A stretch of 64,000 nucleotides of DNA from Solanum dulcamara (Eukaryota > Streptophyta > Magnoliopsida > Solanales > Solanaceae), in contig NC_077242.1 in the NCBI RefSeq assembly GCF_947179165.1, positions 36,143,097 through 36,207,096 on the forward strand. Reading direction: 5' to 3'. Shown one piece after another: positions 15,115 through 48,989 of this stretch. Position 1 is the first letter of the stretch; the number at the start of each line of letters is the position of its first letter. The translations under genes were made by a program, and so were the position numbers. The notes under the pieces are model-generated. The model searched no databases. It was not told where the DNA came from and saw only the letters and a list, made by a program, of their open reading frames with translations.

Positions 15115-15118
15115 GAAG

Positions 15119-15130
15119 TGGTATCATAGC
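15119..15130 (+). other. E2 primer-binding site
   Basis: TGGTATCATAGC lies four bases after the LTR end. It matches the initiator-methionine tRNA complement used by chromoviruses (TGGTATCAGAGC) except for one base. Confidence 0.8.
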
Positions 15131-15306
15131 AATTTGTCCTTGGATTGTCTACAGACCGTGTCTAGTAGAGTCTTGTTTATCGGTATGTATCATGCCACAT
15201 CTATAAACAGGAGCCTACAGGACATTTTGGATGTCATATTTCCTTTATATCCAAGATCGTGTGATAGAGCTGTGTAATCAGTATAATTCCTCCCTAACGA
15301 ACTGTT

Positions 15307-18569: not shown

Positions 18570-19200
18570 TATCTATCACTTATAAAGTTGCCTACAATAA
18601 TAACTATCACTCCAGTATTCTAATGAACCCATATAAGACTGGTAGGGCAGGATGTGTAAGTCTCTTATTGGTTGGGTCGATATTAGGCAGACTAAGCTAG
18701 TAGGCCCAGACAGGATTCAGAAAGCTATTAACTAGCAACCTAGAGTCGGCAGAAAGGATATCCAGATAATCAACATCGACATTCAGAGTTCAAGTTGAGG
18801 ATTGGGTGTTCGTAAAAGGGGCACCCAGGAAGGAAGTAATAATATTCGGCGAGAAATGGAAGCTTAGCCCAAAATACATTAGACCTTATCAAGTTGATCA
18901 TAAAAGGAACAGAGTTGCCTATAAGTTGAACTTACCATCTGATTTGGAAACTATACGCCCAGTCCATCAAGTAGGGATACTTTGCAAGGGTACTGGTGAT
19001 CTACCCAGAGTATGTCCCATAAATGATGTCCCCAAAATGGAAGAGCTATCCTGCGAGGAACAACCTATCGCCATCTTGGATCGGCAAATTAGGAAGTTAC
19101 GAGCTAAGGGCGTGACTTTCGTCAAGATATTATGGCAAAAAAAAACTAGAAAGTGGATGACCTAGGAAGTCAAATAGGAGATAAAGAGAAGATATCCGTA
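18570..19200 (+). pseudogene. E2 integrase C-terminus and chromodomain relic
   Basis: Text in shifting frames matches the end of chromovirus pol: AYNNNYHSSI near 18588, SPIGW-like text near 18670, then an open stretch at 18806-19165 with VKGAPRKEVI, KWKLSPKYIRPYQV (GPY/F module), RVAYKLNLPSDLETIRPVHQ, and the chromodomain core EEQPIAILDRQIRKLRAKGV. It ends KWMT, a stop, EVK at 19152-19174 and RRYPYLS near 19190. This gene should encode strand transfer and chromatin targeting. Stops and the absence of the catalytic core make it non-functional. The TGACCTAGGAAGTC text at 19158-19171 lines up with the 5S junction in E3 and E4. Confidence 0.85.
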
Positions 19201-19321
19201 CCTGTCTCTATATACAAAGGTAATAACCTCCTAAATGGATTGAGAGACGACGGTTATACAGAACCCCCGAAATCTTTATAGAACCCTATAAGACGAGTTA
19301 ATATTTGAGGATGAATGTTCT

Positions 19322-19335
19322 AAAGGGGAGAAAAA
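19322..19335 (+). other. E2 polypurine tract
   Basis: AAAGGGGAGAAAAA sits directly before the 3' LTR start, as needed for plus-strand priming. Confidence 0.8.
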
Positions 19336-19720
19336 TGTTATACCCCATATATTTATACCTTGAAACGTGTTCCTAACCTTCTTGAAAATGTCCATGTGAC
19401 CCCCTACTTTCCACCCACATCAAACAACTCTAAGAAAAGAAGAATGCGATACCCCGTGAGAGGAAAGGTTAGAAATCGGGCTAGAAGAGTCTGGAAGGAG
19501 TTAGAGGCCATGTAATGAGTCGTAGGAATTGACTTACCTATGTAAGCTAATAACTTAAAAGTCTTTCTTATGCCACTAGAGTACATACCAAGCTTATATA
19601 GCAAGAATTACATAGGTTCTTAAAATAAGACGAGATTACAAACCCATGTGGAAGAGGAGAGAATCACATATGGCAGCAAGAGGAGGCACCACATGGCAGC
19701 TTGGGAAAGTGACATATTAC

Positions 19721-19767
19721 AGCAGGTGACCCACCTGCTTGGGTTCAAGTAGGTGACCCACCTACTT
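19721..19767. repeat. Paired hairpins in family B LTR
   Basis: AGCAGGTG-ACC-CACCTGCT(T) at 19721-19740 and AAGTAGGTG-ACC-CACCTACTT at 19747-19767 are adjacent inverted repeats with 8-9 bp perfect stems and 3-base loops. The same pair, more diverged, is in both E3 LTRs (28934-28985 and 33958-34005). Confidence 0.7.
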
Positions 19768-19886
19768 TGGAGGTGGGCCCCACAAGGACATAAGGCAGCC
19801 TAGGAGGTATGGCATGGATACGTGGCCCAATAGAGGATGGACACATGTCACCCTTAGGGGATGACATGTGTCATATTCCAAGGCAG

Positions 19887-19903
19887 TATATATATATATA
19901 TAT
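19887..19903 (+). promoter_or_regulatory. E2 3' LTR TATA region
   Basis: A TATA dinucleotide run follows CACATGTC/ACATGTGTC motifs and precedes a purine-rich leader (AAAGAAAGAAAAGAAAGC). The same order occurs in the E3 LTRs, so it is the likely core promoter of family B. Confidence 0.55.
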
Positions 19904-22713
19904 GTTAATGACTCTTAAGTCATTTTTCAGCCAAGATATTGAACAAAGAAAGAAAAGAAAGCTTAGAGCCTAAGAGAGAGTACCTACGACAACAAGGAAA
20001 AAAAGGGTAAGTCTCCAATTTTCCTCCGTGAATTAATTATATAAGGTGTTCCTCGATCACGTGGGAATGTATATATGTACCTTAGGATGAATAATTCTTC
20101 ACTTCATCAACTTATACTTAGCCAAAAAAAGGAGGGCTACGGGTTTGGTCTCCAAAAGGTAAGCCTCCAACTTTCATTCTGTGAATTAATTATTTAAGGT
20201 ATCCTATGGTTACATAATGGTTTTTAATAGCATAAAATCACTATTTGGGGAAGCGAAGAAGTGATATAAATAGTGCACTCCATTTCAGCACATCAAGAGG
20301 TTTCCAAAGTGGTTTTTAGCGAGTTTTGGCCAATTTCGGGTAAGTAAGTTCTTTCCTTTCAACTTGGAGTTTATGGTGTTGTTATGAAGTGTATTAAATT
20401 TCATTTAGGTGGCTTTAAATATGAAAATTCCATAAATATGCTTGACGTTAGAAGCAATTTAAATTGAAGTCGTTATAATAAATTGTAGTTGAAGTAAGAT
20501 GTTGTGATTATGGTGCGCGGCTGCAAGTGTGTGGTAGGGTGTTTCAGGGATGGAACATGTCCTAAATAGGGCATGGGTGCTTATGGTTTCAGCCACATGA
20601 CCCCCCATTTTGTATAGTTAAAGGTTTTACGAAATAAAGATTAAAGACCCTATTTTGGTATCGTAATTTTAAGCAAGTTGTTTGGATCTTGTGTTGTGTA
20701 GTGTTACCATGTTTTATGTGTATATGAGCTGAAAGTTGTTATTGTTGTTTGTATGTGGTGATTAGGAATGTAATTGGGAATTCGGATACGGCATGTTATA
20801 GAGGAGGTGCTGCCCGATTTCCGGTAATGCCTTAACTAACTAAAGAACTAGTCGAGAAGACGAGCGAGAAAATGAGTTCTATGAATACTTGGGTGCAATT
20901 TAAGATGCTGAAAAGTCAAGGGTTTTTGATATTCATATTGGTTCCGTGTTGAATAGATTCAAAGGACGATGAGGCAAACATGATAAAGAGTAACCCGAAA
21001 GAGTGATGTGAAGCTTTCTGTTGGCATGTTTTTGGCATCAGTATGTAGAGCTATTCTTCTTTTCTTTTGGCATGTATTAGACTTAGGTGGGTTGTATATG
21101 AAATGTGGGGATAATTCCATTCCCAGGACTCCAAGTACACCTCATAATCCCTATCCACTACTTGATGTTGGAACCCCTACAAGAGTCGAGTATTGCCTTT
21201 CAAGGCTTCCACGTGTTAAGAAGTAGTGTATGTAAGCCTATCCTTCCATTTTCCTGAGAGGTTGTTGGCATGAAAATAAGGTTTTGATGCCATGGTTGTT
21301 CACCGAGCCCCATAATGGGTCGAGAACAAAATGTGTACATAATAACCTCATGAAGGAAAATGTAGATTGTGTAAAGCTTATCCTCTTCCTTCTTTTGGTA
21401 TGTCTTAGATGTAAGTAGAATATGATACAATCTATGAGGTACTGACACTCTTAAGCATCTCCTATTTACTTCTGGATATCGAACACATATAATAGATGAA
21501 CTATTTTTCTTGAAACTTCTATATGTTAAAGAGGTAACAAATGTAAAGGCTTCAAGTCTTAAAGACTATATGATAATAAGTATTTCGGATTCCTTATGTG
21601 GTTAGCATTACTTTAGTACATATCTAGGGTCCCCGAGATACTAATTGATATAACCCCTAATGGTATTTATAGGGCACTCAAGAGTACTACACTACTACTC
21701 GGGTCCTCAGACGAAAGCTTAATCTTCTTATACCATCAAGTCTGATAATGTTTTAAATTGCATATGGTTACTCACTACTCTACTTATGCATACTATAACC
21801 CTTCTATCACCGAGTCCTGGGTAGGTATGTAGACGTGCGCAGTTCACTGCATTATCCACCGAGTCCCTTACTAAAGGGCTGGGTACGCTATATGAGAAAA
21901 TAATACTGTAATGACATAAAAACTCACCGAGTCCCTCACTAGAGGGCTAGGTATGTATGTATATATATGATGATGTGATGTAATAAGGTGGTGATGGCAC
22001 CGAAACTATGATGGTCCTACAGATATATTTTACTGGATCCCTGAAAGGGCCGGCTATATTGTGTAATTTGAGCATGCATACTTTTATGATTCACAGAGTA
22101 CATGTACAAGTTTTTGATTTGATATTTTACCCCCTGCTTCTCTATTTCAGATATTCTTCCAGTTGCACTATGTTACGTTTTACATACTCAGTGCATATGT
22201 CGTACTGATTCCCTTTCTTTGGAGCGGATGCGTTTTATGCCCGCAGGTACAGATACAGGTTTCGAGAGTCCATCAGCTTAGGATTCTGCTCATCTCAGCT
22301 GGAAGAGGCTCCCTTTTATCGGAGCCTAGTTTTAGTACTGACCATAGATGTATATGAGTGCTTTTGTTATTTCAAGGGTATGGCAGGGGCCATGTCCTAC
22401 CATATGTTATCATTAACAGTTTTAGAAGTCTGGAGACACGTATATGTGGGTTGTGTATGTTAGTGTGGTTCAGCTGAGTCTACATGATGTATGGTACATG
22501 TTATTATGTTACGGTAGCCTTGTCGGCTTGCATGCCCTTTCATGATGTGATACAAATGAGAGAGGCTATAGGTTTATGGAAATGTTATCACCCAATAGGG
22601 TTCTGATGTATGCTATTATGTTGTTTATAGTTCGACTTGACCACAACTGATAGATGTGTATATGGGGGTCCAGGTCAGACCCCAGTCGCGGCCTTCAGGG
22701 ATGAGTCATGACA

Positions 22714-28931: not shown

Positions 28932-28999
28932 TTGAAGCAAGCAGGTGACACACCTACTTGAAGCAAGTAGGTGACTCATCTACTTAGAGTGGACCCCAT

Positions 29000-29121
29000 G
29001 CTGCCACGTGGCAGCTTTGGATTGGCCGCATGATTGAGGTGGCGCCCTAGGGGGCTGCCACGTGTCACCCCTAGGGGCTTCCACATGTCACCTCCTAAGA
29101 AGGTATATATATATATATATG
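29000..29121 (+). promoter_or_regulatory. E3 LTR core promoter with G-boxes
   Basis: A perfect 16-bp palindrome, GCTGCCACGTGGCAGC, lies at 29000-29015 and contains a CACGTG G-box. A second CACGTG is at 29059-29064 (CCACGTGTCACC) and a CACATGTC follows near 29082. A TATA run is at 29104-29121. In the 3' LTR (34023-34150) the second G-box and TATA run are kept, but the first palindrome is broken. Confidence 0.6.
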
Positions 29122-31110
29122 TATTACATACTGTACATAGTTCATTCTTCAGCATTTAGAACAAAATAAAAGAAGGAAAACCCTAAGATACTAAGAGAGA
29201 AAGGTGACGGCTTTGGCCAAAGTGAAAGGTAAGCTCCAATTCCATTCCGTAAATTAATTATTTAAGGTATTCCTCATCTAAATAAAGGTGTTCAACATCT
29301 TAAATTAATTTATTAGGGCAGCAATATAGGGATGCAAACAGCCACCGAAGTTCAGTCGCAACAAGAGCTTCCAAAGCCAATTTTTAGCAAGTTTAGGAAG
29401 CCGTTCGTTAAGGTATGGTGTGGTTATCTTCTCCCATATAATGATAAGGGTTTGGAAATTTTATGAGGGTGTTAATAACATAAAGTTATGGTTTGGAGCA
29501 GCACCAAAAAGATACAAACAGTCCACTACTTTTCAGCACTCAAAGGAACTTCCGAGGCTAGGTTTTGGCTAGTTTCGGCCAATTTCGGGAAAGGTCAGAT
29601 CTTTCCTTTCAATTTGAAGTTTATGGTGTTATCATATGGTTTTTTATACATATTTTATGCTGCTTGAAGTGTAAGAACTTCATATAAGTGATGGACGTTA
29701 AAAACAAATTAAATTGGAGTCGCTATAGTTGAATTGTAGTCGAAGCAAGGTGTTGTGCTTATGGTGTGGTGCTGCAGGTTGTGGTTTTGTGTTTAAGGTC
29801 CTAAAATTATACTAAAAGGGGTGTGGGAGCTTCTGGTTGTATCCACCCAATCCCCCATTTCATATAGTTAAAGGTTTTGCAAAATGGAAACTAGAAATCC
29901 TATTTTGGTATCGTGGTTTCGCGTGAGTCATTTGCAGTTTGTGTTGTATTATGTTGGTGTGAACTGCTTATACATGTGCTGAAGGTTGACTTTGTTGGTT
30001 GGATGTAGTTATTAGGAGTGTAATTGGAAACTCGGATAGGGAATAATATAGGGGAGGTGCTGTCCAATTTCCGTTAACGCCTTAACTAGTTAAGGAACTA
30101 GTCGAGAAGGCGAGCGAGGAAATAAATGTTGTGAATACTCATAGGTAATATAAGATGCTGGAAAAGTCTAAGGTGGTTGTTATTCGTATTGATTCCATGT
30201 TAAATAGGTTTGGAGGACGACGACGTAAACGCGATTAATAGAAGTACGTAAAATGTATGTGAAGCTTTCTTTTGGCATGTTTTTGGCATAAGTATGTAAA
30301 GCTATTCCTTCTTTTGGCATGTTTTGGTATAAGTATGTAAAGCCTATCTGTTCTTTGTTTTGTGCATGTCTTAGATCTAAGTGACAAGTGATATTTGTAT
30401 GAAGCTTGGGGTGACTCTATTCATGAGCTCTGAACATGATTCATGATTCATAATTTGTGTTCACTGTTGAATGTTAAGACTCTTAAAGTAGTAAAGCTTT
30501 CATTCCTCAAGTTTTCTATATGCTGAGAAGTAGTGTATGTAAAGTTATTCTTCTTCTCTTTTGGCATGACTTAGATGTAAGTATTGTGTATATGAAGTTT
30601 AAAGTTATTCCACTCTTAACACTCTGAGGGTGGGTTAAGACTCTTGTTCACTTCCTACTGATTAGAACTCCTATAACAAGTTGAGTCATTACTTTTCAAG
30701 TCTTCCATGTAATAGGAAGTGCTGCATGTAAATCTTGTCTTTTCCTGCTTCTAGAAAGACTAGACTAAAGGTTCTATAGGACATGGATTTGGATATAGCC
30801 CCATTTATAGATTCTGGATGTAACTCATGACTTGTACCCAATTTTGAATGATAAGGGCCTTGAAGTAGTTGAACTACGACCCTTGAGCCTCCTATAGGTT
30901 GAATAGTGTTGGGATGTGTAAGCTCCTATACCTAGGGGCTCTTGAACATGCTTTACGATGATATCTAAGGGATGTTTGACATGTTACAAAGTTTTACGTG
31001 CATATATATGCATTATGATATATATATGGATCGGGCCAGATGTATCTCAGGATATTTTGCTATGTAAGGACCGGGTCATACGTTCCATGACAGATTATGC
31101 ATTATATGAA

Positions 31111-31270
31111 TCGAGCTATCGTACCTTGGCATTATTATGCATTATACGGATCGGGCCATCATACCTCGACATCATCATGTAATATCTGGATCGGGCCATC
31201 ATACCTCGGCATTATCATGTGACATATGGATCGGGCCGTCGTTCCTCGGTATGTGCTTATTGTATACATG
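31111..31270 (+). repeat. 40-bp tandem repeat in E3 5' LTR
   Basis: Four units start at 31111, 31151, 31191 and 31231 with TCGGGCCATC or a variant, each exactly 40 bp apart and containing a TACCTCGGCAT-type block. Confidence 0.8.
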
Positions 31271-32080
31271 AATCGGGTTGTACGTCCCACAGTGCTAATA
31301 ATATGTATATGCTTATCATCGTAAATGATGTGTTTGTAACACCGAGTCCTTGAGTGGGCCGGATACGGTACGTGATAATGGTATACATGACTTTATTTTA
31401 TGAGATGCAGGTATAGTACCCTATTAAATGCTATACTTGGTTTCCTCCACTCCTGTTTCAGTTGTTATCTCAGTTATGTATGCTTATATACTCAGTACAT
31501 GTATCGTACTGACCCCCCTTTCTCTAGGGGGCTGCGTTTCATGCCCGCAGGTACAAATGTTCATTTCAAAGATCCGCCAGCTTTGGATTTCTGCTCAGCT
31601 ATATTGGATGTGCTCCACTGTTTCGGAACCTAGCTTTTGGGTACTGGTCCTGCGATGTATATATTTGTTTATGCAGGGGTACGACCGGGGCCCTATCTTG
31701 CCATATGTTGTCGTTCCTATTCTTAGAGGTCTGTAGATATATGTGTGTGGGTTGTTTAAGAGTTTATTTCGGTTATGACTATGCGATATGTTATAAAAGC
31801 TATTATGTTATGGAAGCCTTATCGGCTGGCTTTCCCTTTCATGACAAGGTGCAAATGAAAGAGGCTACACGTGTATGAATATTTTATCACCCGCTGGGTT
31901 CATGTGTTTGGTTCCTATATCTAGGAGGCTATATGAACATGAAAAAGTTTTAACCCATGAAGGTTTTTGTGAGCAGTATCACGTTAAACAGAGTCCAATT
32001 TGACTACAATTGATAAATAGGTACACGGGGGTCCAGGTCGGACCCTAGTCGCAGCCCACAGGGTTGGGTTGTGACAGAAG

Positions 32081-32092
32081 TGGTATTAAAGC
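32081..32092 (+). other. E3 primer-binding site
   Basis: TGGTATTAAAGC lies four bases after the LTR end, the same spacing as in E2. It matches the initiator-methionine tRNA complement with two changes. Confidence 0.75.
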
Positions 32093-33277
32093 AGTTCGTC
32101 CTTAGAGTGTCTACAAACCATGTCTAGTAGAGTCTTGTTTATCGGTGTGTTGTGCACCACATCTATAGACAAGAGGCTACAGGATATTTAGGATGTTACC
32201 TTTCTTTCATATCTACGATCGTGCGATAGAGCCGAGTCATAGGGAATGAAATTCCTCATACTAACTTGTGATTTCAGCAGAAGGACAATATCGATAGAAG
32301 AAGGTTACTGATGATATTAGAAGTTACACAGCATGCACGTAAGCAAGGCACGAATGATAGGTGCCAGGTAAGGTATTGAATAACGACTGACAAGTAAAGT
32401 TAAAATGGAAAGGAAAAAAATAGACAGGAAAGTGCAACAGGTGCAGTTCGAGTAGACATACGAGGTAAGTCTATTTTCATACGGTTGATATTGAGCACCC
32501 TGTGTGGTTCCAGTATGATAAGATATGAATATATATGTTAGACCTGTGAGGCATTGTATGTATTTCCTGCGTGCAGGTGTTGAGATAGGGAAAAATACAG
32601 AGGAAACTCTGCCCAAATTTTCCTAGAAATTAAAGGAGAAGGAGCTACAAGGCTGTAGTATGCCTTGTCCATAATAAAAATGAGATGTGACTAAATTACG
32701 AGTAAGGCTGACCTTGAGAAATAAGTTAATGACTAAAGTGATGGTAATAGTAATAAGAAGGTCAATATGGGTATGGAAAAAGAATCTGGAAAAGACTGGT
32801 GAGACTAAGAGATGATTTAGAGATGACACCTAGATCTGGATAAAATGACATATTAAGGCACTAACTGAGTTGATACATCGGGATAAACGATGATAAGCTA
32901 AGTAATCATTGGGATGAATGGAATGTGGCTTTAAATGCACTGCTACAGTAAGGATATTACTTGAGTACCAATGTTCAAGACTGGAGTTGGTACTGTATAT
33001 TGAGGATTCTAAGCACCTCATGATTGTATTAAGGTTTCGTACAGGGGTAACCTAAAGTATAGGTGATATAAAGGAAGATATGGAAAGAGCACAGTATACT
33101 AAATAGGTTGGAAAGGACTCATATGCATTTGGAAAGTTAGAAATAAACAGACAATGACATGGATACACCCTAAAGGGGGGAAGTGGACAAGAGAAGTTCA
33201 AGCATATGAGAAAATCAACCGACGCTATCATATATAGATGGGAACACTTAAACCTCAAACGAAATCCCCTAAGGGGT
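32093..33277 (+). other. E3 internal non-coding region
   Basis: It is homologous to E4 (55562-57251, reversed) and in part to E2. A conserved block GAGGCATTGTATGTATTTCC with TGCGTGCAGGTG is at 32549-32580, followed by GAGGAAACTCTGCC. Frames here are short and differ between copies, so I see no protein. A stretch near 33220-33277 leads directly into the 5S module and is about 85 bp shorter than in E4. Confidence 0.65.
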
Positions 33278-33378
33278 GGATGCGATTATACCAGCACTAA
33301 CGGACCATATCCCATCAGAACTCTGAAATTAAGCGTACTTGGGAGAGAGTAGTACTAGGATGGGTGACCCCCGGGAAG
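33278..33378 (+). pseudogene. 5S rRNA-derived segment in E3
   Basis: It reads GGATGCGATTATACCAGCAC at its start, then CCCATCAGAACTC, TTAAGCGTACTTGGGAGAGA and GTAGTACTAGGATGGGTGAC, and stops at GGGAAG. This matches plant 5S rRNA from nucleotide 1 to about 103, in sense with the element, with about eight differences (mostly C-to-T or G-to-A type) by my recollection of the plant consensus. The internal Pol III control region is mostly kept: the C box is intact and the A box has few changes. The last 15 or so 5S bases are absent, replaced by chromodomain tail. It is not a functional 5S gene. Confidence 0.92.
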
Positions 33379-33567
33379 CGAAGGAGGAAAGGAAACACAA
33401 GTATCCATACCTATTCCCTATGTCTACAAGTAATCCTAACCTTTGGAACTCTAATATTGATTGCTCGATGAAAGTATATGTTATGGCAACGGGATAGAGG
33501 AACTCTCCATATAGTCAGTATAAGATCCGAAGGAAGGTTTTGGTTCACATTCGAGGACGAATGCTCT
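33379..33567 (+). pseudogene. Chromodomain tail fused to the 5S segment (E3)
   Basis: In frame with GAA of the 5S end, the sequence reads EAKEERKHKYPYLFP and continues to the polypurine tract. The KYPYLF phrase is the usual last block of chromovirus polyproteins (RRYPYLS in E2). E4 has the same tail as EVKMKMKHKYPYLFP. This marks the point where an ancestral pol gene was joined to 5S sequence. Confidence 0.8.
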
Positions 33568-33581
33568 AAAGGGGGGAAGGA
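33568..33581 (+). other. E3 polypurine tract
   Basis: AAAGGGGGGAAGGA lies directly before the 3' LTR start. Confidence 0.85.
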
Positions 33582-36500
33582 TGTTACACCCCATAGTTTG
33601 GTACCTTGGAACACTTCTTAAGTTTCTTAAGTTTCTGGGAAGGCTCTTAAGTTTGTTAGAAGTCATCATGTGAGTCGGATAATCTATAACGTTATGAAAT
33701 AATCCTAAGGAAAGGAGAAGGAGATACTCCATAAGAGAGAAGATTGGAAATAGGGTTACAAGAATCCGAAAGAAGTTGGAGGCTAAGTAGTGAGTCATAG
33801 GAATCGACGTACTTGTGAAAGCTATTATTTGGAACATTTTGCATACTAAGCTACTTGAGTACACATCGAGCTTAAGTAGCAAGGAACACATAGGCTCTTA
33901 AAGTAAGACGAGATTATAAAACTACGGAAGAGAGATAAGGAGATGAGGCACCAACTTGAATCAAGCAGGTGATACACCTACTTGAAGCAAGTAGGTGACT
34001 CACCTACTTGGGGTGGACCCATGCTGCCACGTGGCATATTTGGATTGGCCGCATGATTGAGGTGGCGCCCTAGGGGCTGCCACGTGTCACCCCTAGGGGC
34101 TTCCACATGTCACCTCCTAAGAAGGTATATATATATATATATATATATATGTATTACATACTGTACATAGTTCATTCTTCAGCATTTAGAACAAAATAAA
34201 AGAAGGAAAACCCTAAGATACTAAGAGAGAAAGGTGACGGCTTTGGCCAAAGTGAAAGGTAAGCTCCAATTCCATTCCGTAAATTAATTATTTAAGGTAT
34301 TCCTCATCTAAATAAAGGTGTTCAACATCTTAAATTAATTGATTAGGGCAGCAATATAGGGATGCAAACAGCCACCGAAGTTCAGTCGCAACAAGAGCTT
34401 CCAAAGCCAATTTTTAGCAAGTTTAGGAAGCCGTTCGTTAAGGTATGGTGTGGTTATCTTCTCCCATATAATGATAAGGGTTTGGAAATTTTATGAGGGT
34501 GTTAATAACATAAAGTTATGGTTTGGAGCAGCACCAAAAAGATACAAACAGTCCACTACTTTTCAGCACTCAAAGGAACTTCCGAGGCTAGGTTTTGGCT
34601 AGTTTCGGCCAATTTCGGGAAAGGTCAGATCTTTCCTTTCAATTTGAAGTTTATGGTGTTATCATATGGTTTTTTATACATATTTTATGCTGCTTGAAGT
34701 GTAAGAACTTCATATAAGTGATGGACGTTAAAAACAAATTAAATTGGAGTCGCTATAGTTGAATTGTAGTCGAAGCAAGGTGTTGTGCTTATGGTGTGGT
34801 GCTGCAGGTTGTGGTTTTGTGTTTAAGGTCCTAAAATTATACTAAAAGGGGTGTGGGAGCTTCTGGTTGTATCCACCCAATCCCCCATTTTTTATAGTTA
34901 AAGGTTTTGCAAAATGGAAACTAGAAACCCTATTTTGGTATCGTGGTTTCGAGTGAGTTATTTGCAGTTTATGTTGTAATATGTTGGTGTGAATTTCTTA
35001 TACATGTGATACAGGTTGATTTTGTTGGTTGGCTGTAGTTATTAGGAGTGTAATTGGAAACTCGGATAGGGCATATTATAGGGGAGGTGCTGCCCGATTT
35101 CCGTTAATGCCTTAACTAGTTAAGGAACTAGTCGAGAAGGCGAGCGAGGAAATGAATGTTGTGAATACTCATAGGTAATATAAGATGCTGGAAAAGTCTA
35201 AGGTGGTTGATATTCGTATTTATTCCATGTTAAATAGGTTTGGAGGACGACGACGTGAACGCGATTAATAGAAGTACGTAAAAGGTATGTGAAGCTTTCT
35301 TTTGACATGTTTTTGGCATAAGTATGTAAAGCTATTCCTTATTTTGGCATGTTTTGGTATAAGTATGTAAAGCCTATATGTTCTTTATTTTGGGCATGTC
35401 TTAGATCTAAGTGACAAGTGATATATGTATGAAGCTTGGGGTGACTCTATTCATGAGCTCTGAACATGATTCATGATTCATAATTTGTGTTCACTGTTGA
35501 ATGTTAAGACTCTTAAAGTAGTTAAGCTTCCATTTCTCAAGTCTTCTATATGCTGAGAAGTAGTGTATGTAAAGTTATTCTTCTTCTCTTTTGGCATGAC
35601 TTAGATGTAAGTATTGTGTGTATGAAGTTTGAAGTTATTCCACTCTTAACACTCTGAGGGTGGGTTAAGCCTCTTGTTCACTTCCTAGTGATTAGAACTC
35701 CTATAACAAGTTGAGTCATTACTTTTCAAGTCTTCCATGTAATAGGAAGTGCTGCATGTAAATCTTGTCTTTTCCTGCTTCTAGAAAGACTAGACTAAAG
35801 GTTCTATAGGACATGGATTTAGATATAGCCCCATTTATAGATTCTGGATGTAACTCATGACTTGTACCCACTTTTGAATGATAAGGGCCTTGAAGTAGTT
35901 GAACTACGACCCTTAAGCCTCCTATAGGTTGAATAGTGTTGGGATGTGTAAGCTCCTATACCTAGGGGCTCTTGAACATGCTTTATGATGATATCTAAGG
36001 GATGTTTGACATGTTACAGAGTTTTGTATGCACGTATATGCATTATGATATATATATGGATCAGGCCGGACGTATCTCAGCATATTTTGTTATGTAAGGA
36101 CCGGGTCATATGTTCCATGATAGATTATGCATTATATGGATTGGGCCATCGTACCTTAGCATCATCATGTAATATATGGATCAGGCCATCATACCTCAGC
36201 ATCATCATGTAATATATGGATCGGGCCATCGTACCTCGGCATTATCATGTGACATATGGATCGGGCCATCGTTCCTCGGCATGTGCTTGTTGTATACATG
36301 AATCGGGTTGTACGTCCCATAGTGCTAATAATATGCATATGCTTATCATGATAAATTATGTGTTTGTAACACCGAGTCTCCGAGTGAGCCGGATACAGTA
36401 TGTGATAATGGTATACATGACTTTATTTTATGAGATGCAGGTATAGTACCCTATTAAATACTATACTTGGTTTCCTGCATTCCTATTTTAGTTGTTATCT

Positions 36501-37105
36501 CAGTTATGTATGCTTATATACTCATTACATGTATCGTACTGACCCCCTTTTCTCTAGGGGGCTTCATTTCATGCCTGCAGGTACAGATGTTCATTTCAGA
36601 GATCTGCCAGCTTAGGATTTCTGCTTAGCTATGTTGGAAGTGCTCCACTATTTCAGAGCCTAGCTTTTGGGTACTGGTCCTATGATGTATATATTGTTTT
36701 ATGCAGGGGTACGGCGGGGCCCTGTCCCGCCATATATTGTCGTTCCTATTCTTAGAGGTCTGTAGACATATGTGTGTAGGTTGTTTAAGAGTTTATTTCG
36801 GTTATAACTATGCGATATGTTGTAAAAGCTATTATGTTGTGGTAGCCTTGTCGGCTGGCTTTCCCTTTTATGATAGGATGTAAATGAAAGAGGCTATACG
36901 TGTATGAATATTTTGTCACCCGCTGGGTTCATGTGTTTGGTTCCTATATCTAGGAGGCTCTATGCACATGAAAAAGTTTTAACCCACTGAGGTTTTTATG
37001 AGCAGTATCACATTATACATAGTCCAATTTGACTATAGTTGATAGATAGGTACATGGGGGTCCAGGTCGGACCCCAGTCGCAGCCCATGGGGTTGGGTCG
37101 TGACA
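33582..37105 (+). repeat. E3 3' LTR, complete, 3.5 kb
   Basis: It begins TGTTACACCCC and ends GGGTCGTGACA at 37105. Paired hairpins are at 33958-34005, promoter motifs at 34023-34150 and four 40-bp units at 36141-36300. The next five bases, CATGC, are the candidate target-site duplication, but the matching left flank has been lost. Confidence 0.9.
36141..36300 (+). repeat. 40-bp tandem repeat in E3 3' LTR
   Basis: Units begin at 36141, 36181, 36221 and 36261 with T(T/C)(G/A)GGCCATC. They are collinear with the array at 31111 in the 5' LTR, so the array predates insertion. Confidence 0.8.
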
Positions 37106-40139: not shown

Positions 40140-41745
40140 TGATGTATCGCGTATTTATGATATTTTTGACGCTCAAAATAGTGAATTAGTGTGTGTTGTA
40201 AGCATGTTTTTGTTGATATGATGTCCATTTTGTTTATGTTGCAGGAAAACTAAGTCTCGTACAAGTTTTCATGATTCTGTGGAATACGAGCCTCATCATG
40301 AACCGTAGTGGATTGCACGGGCCATAGTGGATAGCGTAGTGATGATAAGAGAAGAAAGTTGTGCTGGAGGATTTGATGAAGTGTAACTCTACGGAACCCA
40401 CCATGGACCATAGTGCCTTGCAAGGGCCATGGTGGGTGTTGTAATGCCAAACTTGTGAAGATGTTGTTGCTGAAATTTTGGCCAAGTGTAACTTCATAGA
40501 ACCCATCAGGGCCGTGGATTCCACTATGGACCATATTGTTTGATCGTAAAGGCTGAGGGAAGAAGTTGGAGAAGTGGCAAAGGCTATCACCCCAGACTCT
40601 AGTACCGACCATATTCAGTTCCACGGGGCATGATGATTGCCCATGAAGAGATCAAAGTTTACATAGGTGAACAGACCACAGACTGTTAACTTCAGTACGG
40701 TCCGTAATGAGCCAGTGTGAAAAGTGTCTACTTAAGTTTTCCTAGTTGGTTTAGAATTTGGTTTTGTATTTCTATAAATATCCAAATTTATTTTATTTTT
40801 AGGGTTTCGGTTCTTATTTGTTTTTTGAATATTTTTTGAACATATTGAAAATTCACTCTACTACTTGTGGAGATTGATTCATGAAATATCATTCCCGTTT
40901 TCATTCTTGATTTGTGGTTTGTATGTTTAATTCAAGGTTTACTTCTTCATTCCCGTAGGTATTGATTCATGAATTCTACACAAATTCTTGTTATTTTACC
41001 TACAATTATGAGTAGCTAAGCCACAACTAGGGTTGTGGGAGCTATGACGACTTAATTAAATAGGCAAGAAGTAGAATTGATATTCATGATTTATTTTTAC
41101 ATGTATTGAGGTTTCTTCAGTTAAAAGTCTTTCTTAGTGAGTGCACACATTAAGAACTTTCTTGTATTCATTTCTTGCCAGGGACGGAGGTAGTGATTAG
41201 GAAAATAATATCACAACAGTAATTTGAAGAGTTTGACTTCTAAAGAAGGGATAAATTTCATCTAAGCTACTTGAGAACGGAATGAGATAGTACTCTGATA
41301 TCTAGAGCGACGCTTAGTAAAGCATATATTTTGAGATCGAGAGCAGATGAATGAGATATGTCTAATAAGGACCGAAAGGTGAATTAGATGTTATCTAACT
41401 CACTAGATTTTGCATGACATACATTGAACGATATCTTGAATACAAATTGCCTATTAAGTTACATATCGTGGGGATACAATCCTAGCTAAATTCTCATATT
41501 GTTCACAATATAATTGTTACTTTTCTAAAGCATCATTAAGTGATAATTAAATTAAACAACAAAACCCCTTATTTTACTTTATGCAAGTTTGTTTTGGGGA
41601 AGTAATAATTACAACTGAATAGTGATAGCTAATAGAACCTGTTTCAACCTATTTCCTATGGGTTTGACCCCAACTCTTAGTTGAGTAAAATATACTGCTA
41701 ACGACCGTCTATATCTCTTTCGATAGGTGTACTTGAGCATTATCA
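40140..41745 (+). repeat. E7 5' LTR, 1.6 kb
   Basis: It runs from TGATGTATCGCG to ATTATCA, three bases before the primer-binding site, and matches 52794-54358. It contains an 11-bp inverted repeat, ACCCACCATGG/CCATGGTGGGT, at 40396-40406 and 40427-40437, kept in the other LTR. A TATAAAT box is present at about 40770-40776. Confidence 0.9.
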
Positions 41746-41748
41746 AAA

Positions 41749-41766
41749 TGGCGCCATTGTCGGGGA
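41749..41766 (+). other. E7 primer-binding site (tRNA-Asp type)
   Basis: TGGCGCCATTGTCGGGGA matches the known Athila primer site TGGCGCCGTTGCCGGGGA at all but two bases. Confidence 0.9.
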
Positions 41767-41871
41767 ATACAACTTTGAAATGGTCTATTAGTTGCTAATT
41801 CAGTTTGTAGTTCTATATCCTTATTTTACTTTTTGTTTCTTGTTTGTTTTTTTGAAGGGAACAGATAGTGC

Positions 41872-43590
41872 ATGCCAAACACCCAAAGCTAGGGTGAACC
41901 ACTACTTCCTTATGATCTTGAGCTACAAAGGTTAATTTAAAAGATGAATGCGCAAGAGTGTGAGGCACTAAGGCTGAGGTAGCTGGCTGAAAATTAAGTC
42001 AGGGATGGTGATGACAACAAGGATAAACTCAAAGGATCTTTGTGGGGTAGAGATCAGAGAGTTGTGAACTTTGCTCTGGTTGATTATGATGCTGATATAG
42101 ATAGTACAAGAGCTACTAGAGCTATAGTCCTCTTACCACTGCCTCAGGGCGTGAGGTGCACTATAACTAGTACCATACTCCAGATGTTGAACCTAAAAGG
42201 AACATTTGGTGAAGCAACAAGTGACGATGCTAACCAACACATGATGAACTTTATTGCCACCTGTAGGTCATCTAAAATCCTTGGGGTTAGCCAATCAGCC
42301 TTACAACTACATATGTTTCCATTATCTCTATTTGGGGAAGCATTAAAAAGGCTGAATGAGCTTCCACATGGCTCAATCACCAACTGGAGAGAGTTGAGGA
42401 AAGCATTTTTGGATAGGTTTTTCACACCATCCGTGAAGTTCCAAATCAAGGATGAGATTGGTAGTCACAAGCAACTACCTACTAAAGTAGTGTATGAGAC
42501 TTGGGAGAGAATCAGGCAGAAGCTAGGTAGTGTTCAAGTCACAACCTGACCGATGATCACTTCAAGGAGGTATTCTACAAGTCTTGCAATTTTATAATAA
42601 ATCCAGTCATAGATGCAGCTTGTGGTGTTTCATTTATGGACAAGACATTTCAGGAAGCTATAATAATTTTAGATTGGCTCACAAAGAATAACAAAGCCTG
42701 GTACACTAGAGAAACTGATATAAAAGGTTTTGGCTTTCTATTTAAGATGTCAACAGAACTAAGGTGAAAGTAAGAGGAGCGTGATTAGGACACAACCCAT
42801 ATGCAGACTTATATGGATTTGTTAAATAAGTGTTTGTTAGGTGGAGGGCTTGAAAAGGTAAAATTTATGGATACTAAAAGTTGATATGATGAACCAGAGT
42901 TTGATTATGAGGAGAAAGATATGTTTTTGAATAGCCAGGGGGTTTTTGGACATAAAACTCTGGAAACCAAGGTCGGAACATTCAATGAGATAATTACTGT
43001 GACAGGACCGGTAATCGTGATCAAGGAAATTGGCAAAATAAGGATAACTTTAAGAATGATAGAATGGGGTTTATGTGCCACCAATGAATAGAGATTGGGC
43101 AGAAAATAATAGTGGGAACTATAAGCTGGAAGACATAATGAAAAAGGTCTTAAAGAAGGCTGAGGCAACTGAGTCTAGTGTCAGAGATATGCGCGGTGAC
43201 ATGACTAATATCAGTTAGTTGGTGGATTCACACTCTACCTCTATCAAGCAATTGGAACATCAGATGGATCAGTTTTAAGCAATATTTAATCAAAGGAAGA
43301 ATGGTATTTTACCTAGTGACACGGTGCAAAATCCTAAGAAAGATGGGAAATGCATGGAAGTGATAATGAGGAGTGGTAAGGTACTTCCTTACACTATTAT
43401 TGCAGGCACTAAGCAGATTAAGGATGCATCTTCTAAAGTTGATAGGTAGGTAAGGCATCAGGGAGATTAGGCAGTTATATTTGATGATGATGAGGCTAAT
43501 AATCTAGTATTAGAGCAGAAAAAGACCGAGGAGAACAATGGTACAAAGCAAACAGAGAGAGAGACCTCACCCTTAGCCATCTGTTCGCAA
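41872..43590 (+). pseudogene. E7 Athila gag
   Basis: The likely start is ATG at 41872 (MPNTQS, then a stop). The best part, 42040-42549, has the capsid blocks LQMLNLKGTFGEATSDDANQ, HMFPLSLFGEALKRLNELPH, GSITNWRELRKAFLDRFF and VYETWERIRQKLG. Downstream text (YKSCNFIINPVIDAACGVSF) and a late coiled region around 43140-43260 follow in other frames. Frame changes occur near 42545 and 42765, with several stops. I do not see a clear zinc knuckle. Confidence 0.85.
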
Positions 43591-44423
43591 TCCGCCGCCT
43601 CCATTTTCCCATAGATTAAAGAAAAAGGTTGAGGATGGAAAGTTTTTGAAGTTTATTTCAATGCTTAAGGAAATATCAGTCAATATCCCATTGGTGGAAG
43701 AGCTAAAGAAAATTCCAGGTTATGCCAAGTTCATGAAGGATTTGGTTACAAAGAGAGGATAGATTCTTTTGAGCCAGTCGATAATTTACATCACTGTAGT
43801 GCCATTGCTAAAATGTTATTGGTGGAAAAAAAGGAAGATCCGTGCGCATTCACCATACCTTGCACCATTGATGCTTATGATTTCTCAAAGGCTCTATGTG
43901 ATTTAAAAGCTAGTATCAATTTAAAGTCGCTATCCATAAATAGATAGTTGGGCTTGAGAGCCCCCAAACCGACTTCTATGTGGATGCTGATGGCGGATAG
44001 ATCTATGAAACGTCCAATAGGAATTTTGTGTGATATATTAGTGTGAGTGGGCAAGTTAATTTTTGATTTTTTCATACTAGATTGCCAAGTGGATTTTGAG
44101 GTTTCTATCAACCTGGGGAGACTATTTTTGGCGACCGACAGAGAATTGGTAGATGTAGAGCGTGGAGAACTTACACTCAGACTAGAAAAAGAAGAAGTCA
44201 AGTTTAGTGTATGTGCTCTCATGAAGCAACCAAAGGATATGATCATGATATCTGTGTTCAATATTGAGTAGAGATTGTTGTTGATGTAAAGGTTTGCTGT
44301 TGAGCCTTTAGCAGTTGTAATCATGAATTTTGATGGTGATCTATTAATAGGTATAATGAGTCTGTAAATGTTTTGCAGGGTGTCGGGTCACACACCTATG
44401 CTCCTTAGAAGCTTGATCTTGAC
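43591..44423 (+). pseudogene. E7 Athila protease
   Basis: FLKFISMLKEISVNIPLVEE (43642-43701) and IPGYAKFMKDLVTKRG lead in. The core has CAFTIPCTIDAYDFSKALCD, then D-L-K-A-S at 43900-43914 in place of the usual D-L-G-A-S, so the glycine after the catalytic aspartate is lysine. LILGRPFLAT-like text (INLGRLFLATDRELVDVERG) and ELTLRLEKEEVKFSV close the domain (44109-44205). Stops occur at 43945 and 44044. Confidence 0.85.
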
Positions 44424-45490
44424 TTGAAGAATAGGCCGACTCCACCTGCTAAACCATCCATAGAGGAGTCGCCTGTACTTGAGCTTAAAGAATTGTCAGT
44501 CCATTTGAAGTACATGTTTCTTGGTGAGCATAACACTTTGCCAGTAATTATTGCTGCAGATTTGAGTGAAGGACAGGTCACAACACTGGTGGAGGTATTG
44601 CAGAGATATAAGAAAGCTATTGGTTGGACTATTACTGATATTATAGATATTTCTCCTGGCATTTGCAATCACAAAATTCAGTTGGAGGAGGATTGCATTC
44701 CCAGTATTGAACACTAGAGGATATTATACCCACCTATGAAAAAGGTGGTAAAGAAGGAAATTATTAAGTGGTTAGATGCAGGTGTGGTCTATCCCATATT
44801 CGATAGCAACTGGGTGGGCACTATTTAGAGTGTCCCTAAAAAAGAGGTATGATAGTTGTCTCGAATGATAAGAATAAGCTAGTCCCACTTAGACAAGTCA
44901 CTAGATGGCAAGTCTGCATGGACTACAAAAAGCTTAACAAATGGACTTGGAAGGATCCTTTTCCAATGCCCTTCATAGACTAGATTTTAGATAGGTCGGC
45001 AGGTAGAGGTTAGTACTGTTTTCTGGATGGGTACTCTGGCTACAACCAAATATACATAGCACCATAGGACTAGGAGAATATGACGTTCACATGTCCTTAT
45101 GGAACCTTTACATTCAAGCGCATGCTACTTGGACTATGTAATGCTCCTGCTATATTCTAGTGCTGCATGATATCTATATTCTCTGACATGGTGGAGGGCC
45201 CTATTGAGGTATTTATGGATAATGTTTTAGTAGTAGGTGGTAATTTTAATGACTATTTATTGAATCTTAGTAGGCCTTTGCAGAGATGTGAAGAGGCCAA
45301 CCTAGTCTTAAACTGGGAAACATGTCACCCCATGGTCAAAAAGGGTATTATTCTAGGCCACAAGATTTCTAAAAAAGGGTTGGAGGTCGAAAAAGAGAAG
45401 ATAGACATGATTAAGAAACTGCCTCCCCTATCTTTATAAAGGGTGTCCGTAGCTTCCTGGGTCATGCAGGTTTTTATAGGCATTTTATCA
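44424..45490 (+). pseudogene. E7 reverse transcriptase, catalytic motif FMDN
   Basis: The N-terminal lead-in KELSVHLKYMFLGEHNTLPV and YKKAIGWTITDIIDISPGIC is open (44424-44717). Then KKEIIKWLDAGVVYPI, CMDYKKLNKWT, FLDGYSGYNQIYIAP (45019-45065), FTCPYGTFTFKRM and LCNAPAIF follow. The catalytic site at 45212-45223 reads F-M-D-N, the second aspartate being asparagine. NLVLNWETCHPMVKKG and LGHKISKKGLEVEKEKID complete the thumb. A frameshift near 44840 and several stops break it. Confidence 0.9.
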
Positions 45491-46064
45491 AGGATTTCTC
45501 TAAAATTCACACCCTTTGTGCAAGTTATTAGAGAAGGAGATAAAGTTCTACTTTGATAAGGCATGTATGAAAGCGTTTGAGTACTTGAAGGAGAAGTTGA
45601 TCTCATCCCCCGTGATTGATTCTCCAGATTAGTTTGCCCCATTTGAGATCATATGTGATGCTAGTGGTGTTGCTTTTGGGGTTGTGCTAGGGAAAAAGCA
45701 CAATGAGATCTTTTATCCCATATATTATGCTAGCAAAGTGCTAAATATAGCCCAGAAGAATTACACTGTCACCGAGCAGGAACTGTTAGCAGTGGTGTAC
45801 GTATTAAAAAAATTCAAAGAATTCCTTTTGGGTACCAAGGTGATAGTGCACATTAACCATGCAGCCTTGTGATATATGATGACCAAGAAGGATGTTAAGA
45901 CAAAGTTAATCAGATGGGTTGTGTTGCTCAAGGAATTTGATTTTGCGTTGAAAGACCACAAAGGAAGTGAAAATCAGGTAGCTAACCACTTACCCAGGCT
46001 GGAAGATGAAAATAGAGGTAAGGATGAGCTTGACATTGATGATTCCTTTCCAGATGAATAGGTT
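45491..46064 (+). pseudogene. E7 RNase H
   Basis: The sequence has FEIICDASGVAFGVVLG (45645-45695), TEQELLAVVYVLKKFKEF (45771-45824), VIVHINHAAL (45841-45870; N in place of the aspartate of TDHAAL) and ENQVANHLPRLEDE (45970-46012; N for D of ADHLSR). The first aspartate and the glutamate are kept. A stop lies at 45870. Confidence 0.85.
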
Positions 46065-47400
46065 TTGGTTCTACTCTTGATCTCATTCCTTGGTTTGCTG
46101 ATTATACTAACTATCTTGTTAGTGATGTTATGCTTGAAGATCTTAATTTCCAGCAGCGAAAGAAGATTTTATATGATATCAATAGGTACTTCTGGGATGA
46201 GCCATTTTTATTCAAGATATGTACTGAAAATGTCATCAGGAGGTGTATCCCAGAAGTAGAAATGTTAAGTATTTTGGAGGCTTATCACTCCTCACAGGTA
46301 GATGGACACAAAAGTGGGATCCGTACAATGCAAAAGATACTAAAATATGGATACTACTGGCCAACTATCTACAAAGATGCACATGAATTGGTAAAGAGTT
46401 GTGACCAGTGCCAAAGGTAGGGAAACATATCTAGGCGTCAAGAGCTACCTATGACACCAATCTTGGAAGTAGAGTTGTTTGATGTATGGGGCATTGATTT
46501 CATGGGGCCATTCATGAGCTCATATGGGATGAAGTACATTCTTGTGGAAGTTAATTATTTCTCTAAATGGGTGGAAGTTGTCTCCCTACCAGATAATGAG
46601 AGCAAAAGTATTGCTGGATTTCTATGAAGAAATATCTTTTTCAGGTTTGGGACTCCTAGGGCTATCATCAGTGATGGGGGATCCTATTTTTGCAATATCT
46701 TTTGGACTCTATTGGTGAAATATGATGTACAACAATACAAGGTAGCTACTCCATATCATCCCTGTCTAGTGGGATGGTTGAGGCGTTAAACTAAGAAATT
46801 AAGGATATTCTAGCCAAGTCTGTAAATATCAATATGACTGATTGTTCAAGAAAGCTAAATGATTCTCTATGGGCATATCAGACAGCTTTCAAAACACCTA
46901 TTAGTATGTATCCATACCATATAGTGTTTGGAAAGGCATGTCATTTGCTTGTGGAGATGGAACACAAGGCGTTGTTGTCCTTGAAAAAGTTAAACTTGAA
47001 TTCGAGTGAAGTTGCGCATATGAGACTAGATAAAATCATTGAGATGGATGAGTTTCACTTGCATTCATATGGGAGTGCTTCTCTTTACAAAGAGAGAATG
47101 AAACTATACCAGCGCCAATTTAGTATGGGGACAAAGTGTTGCTGTTTAATTCAAGACTGAGGTTGTTTCTAGGCAAGCTATGGTCAAAGTGGTCTGTACC
47201 TTTCACCATCATATAATTATCATAGAGAAGTTGAACTTGAACCTCAATATGGTCATAGATTCAAAGTGAATGGAAAGCAAATGAAGTGGTACTTGGGATC
47301 TCCTAACAAAGTGAAAGTGGTTGAAGAACTCCAATTTGATGAAGTCTGAGTAGTCAAGGAACCTGTGTAGTGCCACGATATTAAATCAGGTGCTACATGG
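46065..47400 (+). pseudogene. E7 integrase
   Basis: The H2C2 finger is complete in 46250-46420 (AYHSSQVDGHKSG, then CDQCQR). Core blocks are [20 protein letters not shown] (46485-46545), RAIISDGGSYFCN (46654-46695) and, after a one-base frameshift near 46770, SGMVEALN, so D, D and E are all readable. MYPYHIVFGKACHLLVEMEH (46909-46968) follows. The end shows FKVNGKQMKWYLG and a tail to about 47390. Confidence 0.88.
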
Positions 47401-48989
47401 TAGGCACCTCATGGGTAAAAGCTTCATAAAGTCTAAGTAGTGGAGTGACCCGCATCGTACTACGATATTAAATCAAGCATTGCTAGGGAGGCAACCCAAG
47501 GATTGTATTAGTATTAGATAGGTTAATTTTTTTTATTTGATGTTTTGATAGTGTCATAGTGTGTTTAGTGAGTGCAAGGTCTCAAAGGAGGAGAAAAATA
47601 TTTAAAAATGGCCAAGGTTTCCCACTATGGGCACCTATACGACTATATAGGGCACTATGTCCCGTGGTGGAGTGACGTGATGTGCAAAGTCTCAAGGAAC
47701 TTCAAGATTATAGGAGGGATTACGGCCCGTGAAGGACTTCATGGACTGTTTTACCATCCATGAATCCCAGGTAAGGTTCCTCACCTATGTTCAAGTCTAT
47801 AACTACAGTAGGGATTACGGCCCGTAAAGAACTTCATGGACTGTTCTGTCCTCCGTGCAACCCAGGTTAGACCCCCTCTATCTTGTCCAACTCCTATGCC
47901 ACGATAATAGAGTATGGTCCATGGTGCTCTTTATGAGTATACACCGTGGGTCATGAAGCCTAGTTGGGTAAATCTTATTTAGTCAACCCAGTTTTGACCC
48001 GGATGTAAATTACTTAGGGACTTTTTATTTATTACCCACTTCCACCAAAATTCGTGTCACTTTTCTTCTTTCCTACAATAAATCAACACAATATACACCC
48101 CTACCATTTCTTGTAGTGAAAACCCTTCCGCTTCCCAAGTATTCAAGTTGTAAATAATGATTTATTGGTGTAGTCGAGTATCCTAGTACCTTGAACTATG
48201 AGAATCAATAGTATGAAGCTTACATTGAATAAATTCAGTAAGTTTTTCTTGTCAATTTCTTTGGTTGATGTAAATTGAGAGTTGTGTCATAGTTCAGATC
48301 ATATGTGCATAATTATTAGGATAGTTTGCTTTATGTTGTGTCTGTGAATGTGCATAGTAAGTTGGGCTAGGGTAATTTGACTTCAGATAGTAGTAGTTGG
48401 AATGTGGAATTGATGCAAACTTGTATTTTCTTAACTATGAATGCCTAACTATTGAGTTGTGTATTTTAATGTGCTAAATGTTCATGAATTGGTTTAAAAT
48501 TTGGTTTTTAACTAAGGAGTTCTTTGTTAATGGCTGAACTCTGAGAGGTCAGGGAAGATGACCATCACCACGAATGGTATTGAACTTAATGATTCATGGT
48601 GGAGGCCTATTGTCTCCATTTTTGGAAGATTCTAAGTGCAGGATCACAAAAGGCATCACAGATTGTGAACTTTATCATGGGTTGCGGTGTTGTTCCGTGG
48701 TCCTAACACTTAGAAAATTTTCAGCGTACCTCCTGAGACTTAGATTCTGGAAGCCTTCATTATCCGTGAACACCTTCACGGCCTATGAAAATCCACCATG
48801 TTGAAACACTTTGAAATTTTTCTGTAAATATGAAAAACACAAAATAGTGTTTATTTTAGTTTCTGTTTGCGATCACCCTATGATAGATTGAGCGGCGTCA
48901 TTTCTTAAGGGATATTTTCATGCTTATATGAATCACGGGGATGTCTGAGCACCTATTTAAATTCATCACATCATCTTGTTAAAATACTA
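47401..48989 (+). other. E7 spacer between pol and env-position ORF
   Basis: Non-coding. The GGAGGCAACCCAAGG phrase at 47489-47503 is typical after Athila pol, and a related CGATATTAAATCA phrase is duplicated at 47379 and 47462. A 95-bp tandem repeat with GGGATTACGGCCCGT starts at 47716 and 47811. The remainder is AT-rich with no credible gene. Confidence 0.65.

Follow-up and report, generated by a model that had tools for sequence, protein, structure and literature searches.

An internal 5S rRNA module in a family of long-LTR retroelements of Solanum dulcamara

How does a piece of 5S rRNA come to lie between the LTRs of a long-LTR retroelement, and does it do anything there? The question is raised by positions 33278-33378 of a 64-kb stretch of Solanum dulcamara DNA (the window, meaning the whole stretch of 64,000 nucleotides that we analysed). 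Two elements in the window, here called E3 and C, have such a module at the same site. The best overall explanation is that they are members of a LARD-type family, non-autonomous and derived from chromoviruses, that captured a 5S sequence in sense orientation, a reading to which we give a probability of about 0.7.

The 5S module and its carriers in the window

A cmscan search of the window against 4227 Rfam families returned two matches to RF00001 (5S rRNA), one at 33286-33386 on the plus strand (46.5 bits, E 1.6e-6) and one at 55440-55561 on the minus strand (65.3 bits). Both exceed the gathering score of 38. No other RNA in the 64-kb window scored above its gathering score, and no third 5S match appeared at permissive E values up to 5. 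The reference for alignment was L029, a 5S gene from the array on contig C7 of this genome. The first-pass annotation had described the segment in E3 as matching 5S rRNA from its first nucleotide to about nt 103 and had proposed a covariance check with RF00001; the covariance score and the blastn alignment both bear this out. The features of the two carriers and of a relative, A, are as follows.

28932-32076, plus strand: 5′ LTR of E3, with about 374 bp missing at its 5′ end; ends ..TGTGACA
32077-33277, plus strand: E3 internal sequence upstream of 5S; no sense stop-to-stop frame of at least 75 aa in the ORF lists
32081-32092, plus strand: PBS-like site of E3, TGGTATTAAAGC, with 2 mismatches to the pattern
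33278-33378, plus strand: 5S module of E3; blastn match to nt 1-102 of the L029 5S at 91.2%, lacking a single base near nt 95
33379-33564, plus strand: remnant of the pol 3′ end of E3 (..KHKYPYLFP..) and tail, from similarity to chromovirus pol
33565-33581, plus strand: polypurine tract of E3, TCTAAAGGGGGGAAGGA, directly preceding TGTTACACCCC
33582-37105, plus strand: 3′ LTR of E3, from LTR self-alignment
60166-57269, minus strand: 5′ LTR of element C, from LTR alignment
57268-55258, minus strand: internal domain of element C, 2.0 kb, with a PBS-like site from 57264
55561-55459, minus strand: 5S module of element C; blastn match to nt 1-103 of the L029 5S at 91.3%
54358-55257, minus strand: 3′ LTR of element C, broken off at 54358; 84% to 59350-60167
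13478-22713, plus strand: relative A, with LTRs at 13478-15112 (partial) and about 19336-22713 and a degenerate pol
18770-19162, plus strand: integrase C-terminal SH3 (Tf2-1-like) remnant of relative A (PF24626, E 4.1e-14)

The module of E3 lies in sense orientation within an internal domain of 1.5 kb, 186 nt upstream of the polypurine tract. Its orientation and internal placement were as annotated: the 5′ LTR, which matches 33956-37105 at 94.8% identity over 3153 columns, ends at 32076, the PBS-like site follows at 32081-32092, and the 3′ LTR begins at 33582. The absence of any sense frame of at least 75 aa from the internal domain of E3 likewise agrees with the earlier description of the sequence before the module as non-coding. 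We take the initiator-Met form of the PBS to be TGGTATCAGAGC; GGTATCAGAGC stands at the PBS in other copies, e.g., L016 and L010.

The background of these elements is chromoviral, as the first-pass annotation had proposed. The pol remnant of E3, taken with the polypurine tract and the start of the LTR, is 76-77% identical over 222-223 nt to the pol 3′ ends of four elements elsewhere in the genome (L081, L085, L086 and L087), and relative A has an SH3 remnant of integrase. The internal domains of E3 and C share three aligned blocks (73%, 75% and 85%). Two stretches of E3, 32077-32240 and 32534-32643, are common to relative A (81% and 80% by blastn), and the PBS-proximal blocks of A are common to both E3 and C. 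cmscan found no 5S above the gathering score in A. Instead, the SH3 remnant of A occupies the place of 5S in E3 and C, just upstream of the codons that are joined to 5S in those two elements, and the claim that integrase sequence has been lost there stands. A scan confined to ORF pieces of the window gave no Pfam match to a chromodomain in those pieces. A decayed antisense 5S sought in A (17501-17900) was not shown, the alignment score being 22 against a 95% point of 23 in shuffles.

Several other features lie near these elements. Two tandem MIR8024-like hairpins at 13226-13435 on the minus strand (46.2 and 39.1 bits; gathering score 57.3) adjoin the cut LTR end of element A. MIR8024 being of tomato origin, these sub-threshold matches would fit the earlier annotation's assignment to a nightshade, which is plausible. 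An LTR-like start of another element, TGTAACACCCC, lies at 26904, to the left of the truncated 5′ LTR of E3. Another long LTR element occupies 40140-54358; it has an LTR pair 81% identical, an 11-kb internal domain and remnants of gag (PF03732) and of the integrase H2C2 domain (PF17921), and it adjoins the cut 3′ LTR of C at 54358.

The family in the genome and among known elements

We searched the genome from which the window comes (942 Mb, 32 contigs) for the module joined to its flanks, as the earlier annotation had suggested. With 33200-33600 as the query, 40/40 scored places (the best 40 of 3167 candidates, E3 included) align across flank, 5S and flank at 90-100%. With element C as the query, where the best 40 of 5490 candidates were scored, we obtained C itself, 39 further places (87-91%) and a fragment. 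Because both queries contain 5S, both lists of places favour 5S-bearing copies. An exact 3′-junction pattern matched the genome 82 times (43 on one strand, 39 on the other; the reversed control matched 0 times) and is present in 23 of 60 aligned copies, which suggests a family of some 200 or more copies, a rough figure from a biased sample. The genome-wide RF00001 search had 28662 candidates, and its best 47, all but one of which lie on C7, give no family count. A scan of viral contigs for the 3′ junction gave 0 matches.

Two LTR subfamilies, E3-type and C-type, carry the module in this genome. The first-pass annotation was right that E3 contains 5S; it does not mention the second carrier in the window, and E3 is part of a dispersed family with at least two subfamilies rather than one odd element. 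The two differ next to the module: E3-type copies are without some 75-84 bp upstream of it that are present in C-type copies, between two TAAGGG-TGGAT repeats. Non-coding sequence does precede the module in E3, as annotated, but that 5′ flank is secondary. Since this stretch is missing from E3-type copies, the C-type 5′ junction (in C, CTTAAGGGAT followed by GGATGC) is more likely to be the older of the two.

Copies were sampled from both subfamilies. For the E3-type, 38/39 other places were taken, 20 as stretches of 9.9 kb (L009-L028) and 18 as short ones; for the C-type, 20/39 were taken as short stretches, 5 of those 20 also as stretches of 8.5-8.6 kb. Self-comparison detected an LTR pair in 18/20 E3-type stretches (the exceptions are L013 and L023). 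In 14 measured copies the ends of the LTR-pair alignments give internal domains of 1446-1576 bp and LTRs of 3.0-3.8 kb. LTR divergence in these copies (K2P) is 0.030-0.079, and at a substitution rate of 1.3e-8 per site per year the insertion ages are about 2-6 My. Among the five long C-type stretches, the LTR pair is complete in L091 alone (about 2.95 kb, 90.8%), and the remaining four are partial or rearranged. Around the 14 measured E3-type copies and L091, 5-bp target duplications are perfect in 8/15 cases, match at 4 of 5 bases in 5/15 and are undefinable in 2/15. Thus, the elements moved as units, with 5S inside. At one locus, L011, two units of about 5.0 kb, each with a 5S module, are repeated in tandem. 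A near-perfect, solitary 5S gene-like sequence (L031, C6:35274099-35274217, 108.5 bits) lies about 0.9 Mb from the window and outside the C7 array; its 5S nt 2-3 are altered and its upstream flank is T-rich.

Elements of this kind fit the LARD class, whose core domain between the LTRs encodes no protein and which are assumed to be mobilised in trans (PMC7215508). The 5S family has two LTRs, a PBS, a polypurine tract and 5-bp target duplications, the internal length is uniform in 14 copies, and the internal domain of E3 is free of longer sense frames. It differs in the captured rRNA, which is absent from the LARD description in that paper. The sharing of a pol 3′ tail with L081 and L085-L087, together with the SH3_Tf2-1 match in A, ties the family to chromoviruses. 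The related chromoviruses are presumably of the lineage named Tekay/Del-type; the likeness lies in the style of PBS and polypurine tract, the TGTTACACCCC LTR start, the pol 3′ end and the integrase SH3 of the relatives, and the difference in the gag-pol frame, which is absent from the internal domain of E3.

The closest known parallel is Cassandra, a non-autonomous plant TRIM with 5S-derived sequence in its LTRs (PMC10853983, PMC7215508), which is 565-860 bp long and whose RNA starts within its 5S (PMC10886601). Both are non-autonomous plant LTR retrotransposons with host 5S-derived sequence spanning the internal control region. However, Cassandra as described has 5S in both LTRs, whereas the E3/C family has a single copy, internal and near the polypurine tract, in an element whose length is about 8 kb and whose LTRs measure about 2.9-3.5 kb. 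Membership in Cassandra/TRIMp3 was rejected on two counts. The family's 5S match is internal in the window and in 20 E3-type and 5 C-type loci (the one other match belongs to a sibling element in L013), and the sizes of the measured LTRs (3.0-3.8 kb) and internal domains (1.45-1.58 kb) are not those of an element under about 1 kb. Ajax also is an LTR element with a truncated 5S, but it is a nemertean TRIM of 421-434 bp, hence from an animal, with the 5S in its LTR and reduced to the promoter boxes (PMC10886601). SINE3 elements have a 5S-derived head but are mobilised by non-LTR elements and are without LTRs (PMC10886601).

In the literature covered on Cassandra, Ajax and the 5S-headed SINEs, the 5S lies in an LTR or a SINE head. 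The annotation had known of no described family with this layout, and within the open-licence literature covered (passages of PMC10886601, PMC10853983, PMC7215508, PMC7076952, PMC4524691, PMC12222929 and PMC7025596; Repbase, supplements and subscription papers lie outside this search) we found no internal 5S in a long-LTR element either. The layout is therefore provisionally new relative to Cassandra and Ajax. Repeat libraries may already contain a relative without a name: in potato, 9 of 688 unknown repeat families are reported to match Rfam RNAs, 5S among them, with no further description of the 5S match in that passage (PMC4524691).

Origin of the module

The two ends of the module suggest how it was acquired. 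On the 5′ side it begins with the very first nucleotide of 5S, and apart from 3 matching bases the aligned rows show no gene spacer upstream of it. At the other end, C-type rows have 5S nt 1-103 followed by, e.g., GAAAGAGGAAATGAAACACAAGTATCC in L054, which read by eye in the pol frame gives WEVKEEMKHKYP, as in the pol 3′ end of relatives. The 3′ junction of the module falls within the last codons of chromovirus pol. To see these codons in relatives, we used the integrase remnant of A as a query, scored the best 150 of 37842 candidate places, some with open frames of up to 1627 aa, and read 20 pol 3′ ends. In 10/20 of them, the longest word shared with 5S is nt 94-104 or part of it (8-11 nt, CCTGGGAAGTC), and its position is homologous to the 5S-pol transition of the family. 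In the other 10/20, the longest shared word is a different one. The number of shuffles (of 100) that reached the observed word length was 0 for L070 and L072, 1 for L074 and L078, 8 for L076, 30 for L080 and 8-13 for L081 and L085-L087. Of these pol ends, the four most similar to the family (L085, L086, L081 and L087, from places with open frames of 266-1615 aa) have a 9-nt word; since 8-13 of 100 shuffles reach that length, length alone is modest evidence for these four, and it is the position that counts.

We propose that reverse transcriptase, copying the RNA of an element from its 3′ end, would have passed through the pol stretch CCTGGGAAG(T) and, at this identity, switched onto a 5S rRNA molecule. 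Minus-strand synthesis would then have run off the 5S rRNA at its 5′ end (nt 1) and returned to the element RNA further upstream, with loss of the integrase region. A switch at the shared word and a run-off at nt 1 would account for both junctions and for the loss of integrase in one step. The family would have spread with enzymes supplied in trans, probably from relatives with frames of up to 1615 aa. We consider it likely, from the junction sequences, that the module arose once and in this manner, the 5S apparently being acquired by accident during copying of the element. As for the point of return on the element RNA, no parent sequence was found for the 5′ junction.

An acquisition at the DNA level, in which a fragment of a 5S gene, a 5S-derived SINE or a piece of a Cassandra LTR was inserted or recombined into the element, has a published counterpart, because insertion of a SINE3 into an LTR is the origin proposed for the 5S of Cassandra and Ajax (PMC10886601). 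We regard it as unlikely here. The exact start at nt 1 with no upstream gene spacer beyond the 3 matching bases, the word shared with pol at the other end and the missing integrase region all argue against it, and inspection by eye of the junctions in the aligned rows revealed no SINE tail, poly(A) or target duplication around the module. A search for an empty site, with the two flanks joined without 5S as the query, yielded no 5S-less ancestor among the 40 places scored (the best 40 of 3440 candidates, E3 included). In 37/40 a near-full second match lies at a 5S-sized distance, 1 has a partial match, 1 has none, and 1 is contiguous. The contiguous place (L100, C6:33828030-33828150) was ruled out as an empty site: 5S nt 1-78 are lost, but nt 79-103, the portion with box C, are kept (24/25 bases), so it is a deletion derivative.

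A sibling family related to A has a 5S of its own. Besides its E3-type element, L013 contains an opposite-strand stretch related to A (77.7% over 1543 columns), in which L013:1343-1457 is a nearly full-length antisense 5S (58.6 bits). A query with this antisense 5S matched 5S and its neighbour at 40/40 scored places (the best 40 of 3513 candidates, L013 included), and 5 of the 39 others that were read (L095-L099) contain 5S from nt about 4/7 to 111/116 at 82-86%. The 5S piece, its orientation and its site are all different from those of the E3/C module, and thus 5S was probably captured independently at least twice in this element group.

Probable constraint on the module and its possible function

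If the module was captured by accident, has it since been kept for a purpose? Between the two subfamilies it has diverged little. Net divergence is 0.006 for 5S nt 1-94, compared with 0.089 upstream and 0.030 downstream. In permutations that treat sites as independent and ignore relatedness among copies, p is 0.0015 when both flanks are the reference and 0.0065 when only the downstream one is. The contrast persists without CG and CHG sites (p 0.009) and in 50/50 random halves. For nt 50-94 against the downstream flank alone it is weaker (p 0.078), and strongly differing sites are 11/237 in the flank and 1/94 in the module (Fisher p 0.19). Within nt 1-94, more than half of the copies differ from the host gene at nt 47 in both subfamilies and, in the E3-type, also at nt 67, but nowhere else. 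Since the flanks have diverged by 3-9% and the module by 0.6%, the module is probably constrained between subfamilies, although the copies were picked from the top of similarity rankings and the constraint statistics may be biased toward window-like copies. Recombination between subfamilies could be partly behind the low net divergence on the 3′ side.

Within subfamilies, we compared per-site variation with the expectation from methylation context (CG, CHG, CHH, A/T) over a 0.5-kb region in 39 E3-type and 21 C-type rows. The whole module has 0.77 and 0.84 of the expected variation in the two subfamilies, and the box C region (nt 80-94) has 0.48 and 0.45. Box A (0.99 and 0.79) and the intermediate element (1.14 and 1.13) are at most slightly more conserved than context predicts. 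In the 0.5-kb region, no 27-site window of the E3-type set varies less than nt 68-94 (p 0.00045); in the C-type set this window comes second (p 0.028), but its count of variable sites is not low there (p 0.46). When 21 E3-type rows are compared over the whole internal domain, variation is lowest in a 27-site window that lies outside the module (32700-32726). The next lowest is nt 66-92, within the module, and nt 68-94 rank 15th of 1497 overlapping windows. Taken together, individual copies decay, but the lineages that went on transposing seem to have hardly changed the module.

We lean towards the view that the module has been retained in transposing lineages through some function. The opposing view is that it is a passive hitch-hiker, captured in a single template switch and without function, whose slow divergence reflects sampling, recombination or a young 3′ part, and we put this at somewhat less than an even chance. 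It gains from the whole-module variation within copies, which is not far under expectation, from the free decay of much of the module in single copies and from the lack of a 5S-like fold. It fits less well with the net divergence of 0.006 against 0.030 and 0.089 on the two sides, and with majority differences from the host gene at only 1/94 sites in the C-type and 2/94 in the E3-type.

What might such a function be? The retained nt 1-103 span the whole Pol III internal control region, and the promoter boxes are present in the module. A-box, IE and C-box are the names used in the 5S context (PMC10853983). The leading candidate role would act at the DNA level: the retained control region, through box A, the intermediate element and box C, would recruit TFIIIA and Pol III, with a short RNA or an open locus as the putative outcome. 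The low variation of nt 80-94 speaks for this role. In E3, in C and in 20/20 loci, moreover, a TTTT begins 259-261 nt downstream of 5S nt 1, just upstream of the polypurine tract (C, L013 and L022 have an additional, earlier TTTT). Pol III starting at 5S nt 1 and stopping at this TTTT would be predicted to make an RNA of about 262 nt. On the other hand, neither box A nor the intermediate element shows clear conservation beyond what context predicts, and the same TTTT is found in related pol elements (at least L081 and L085-L087), so we rejected the idea that it evolved as a terminator for the module. Because the predicted RNA is without PBS and LTR, it would not be a transposition template, unlike that of Cassandra. 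We consider this role possible but rather doubtful.

The other candidate role would act at the RNA level. The module within the Pol II genomic RNA could mimic 5S rRNA and bind TFIIIA and L5 for export or packaging, for which the P5SM exon of plant TFIIIA is a precedent. The near fixation between subfamilies of nt 1-49, outside the promoter boxes (Da 0.003), speaks for such a mimic. Yet the E3 and C modules, each folded with a few flanking bases as a 108-nt sequence, fold neither like 5S nor better than shuffles (z 1.11 and 0.63; genuine 5S, z -1.66), which led us to reject a 5S-mimic fold, and we take the 3′ partner strand of helix I to be missing from the module, which also counts against mimicry. 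This role seems to us improbable, less to be preferred than recruitment of TFIIIA and Pol III to the DNA, and each of the two ranks below the absence of any function. The full proposition, that a chromovirus-derived LARD captured 5S by template switching and that purifying selection has since maintained it as a functional module for TFIIIA, Pol III or 5S-binding proteins, is accordingly put forward here only as a tentative one.

The 5S family bears on how LTR elements gain small-RNA promoters. Both ends of the captured piece, the run-off at nt 1 and the likely switch point in pol, are kept in many copies, and the capture can therefore be read. The family also offers a test of 5S factors acting on an internal site. 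On the practical side, 5S annotation and 5S-based clustering of repeats in such genomes will include retroelement copies. If the full proposition is true and the antisense capture was independent, then LTR elements would repeatedly have acquired Pol III-type signals by capturing 5S, with no need for a SINE intermediate.
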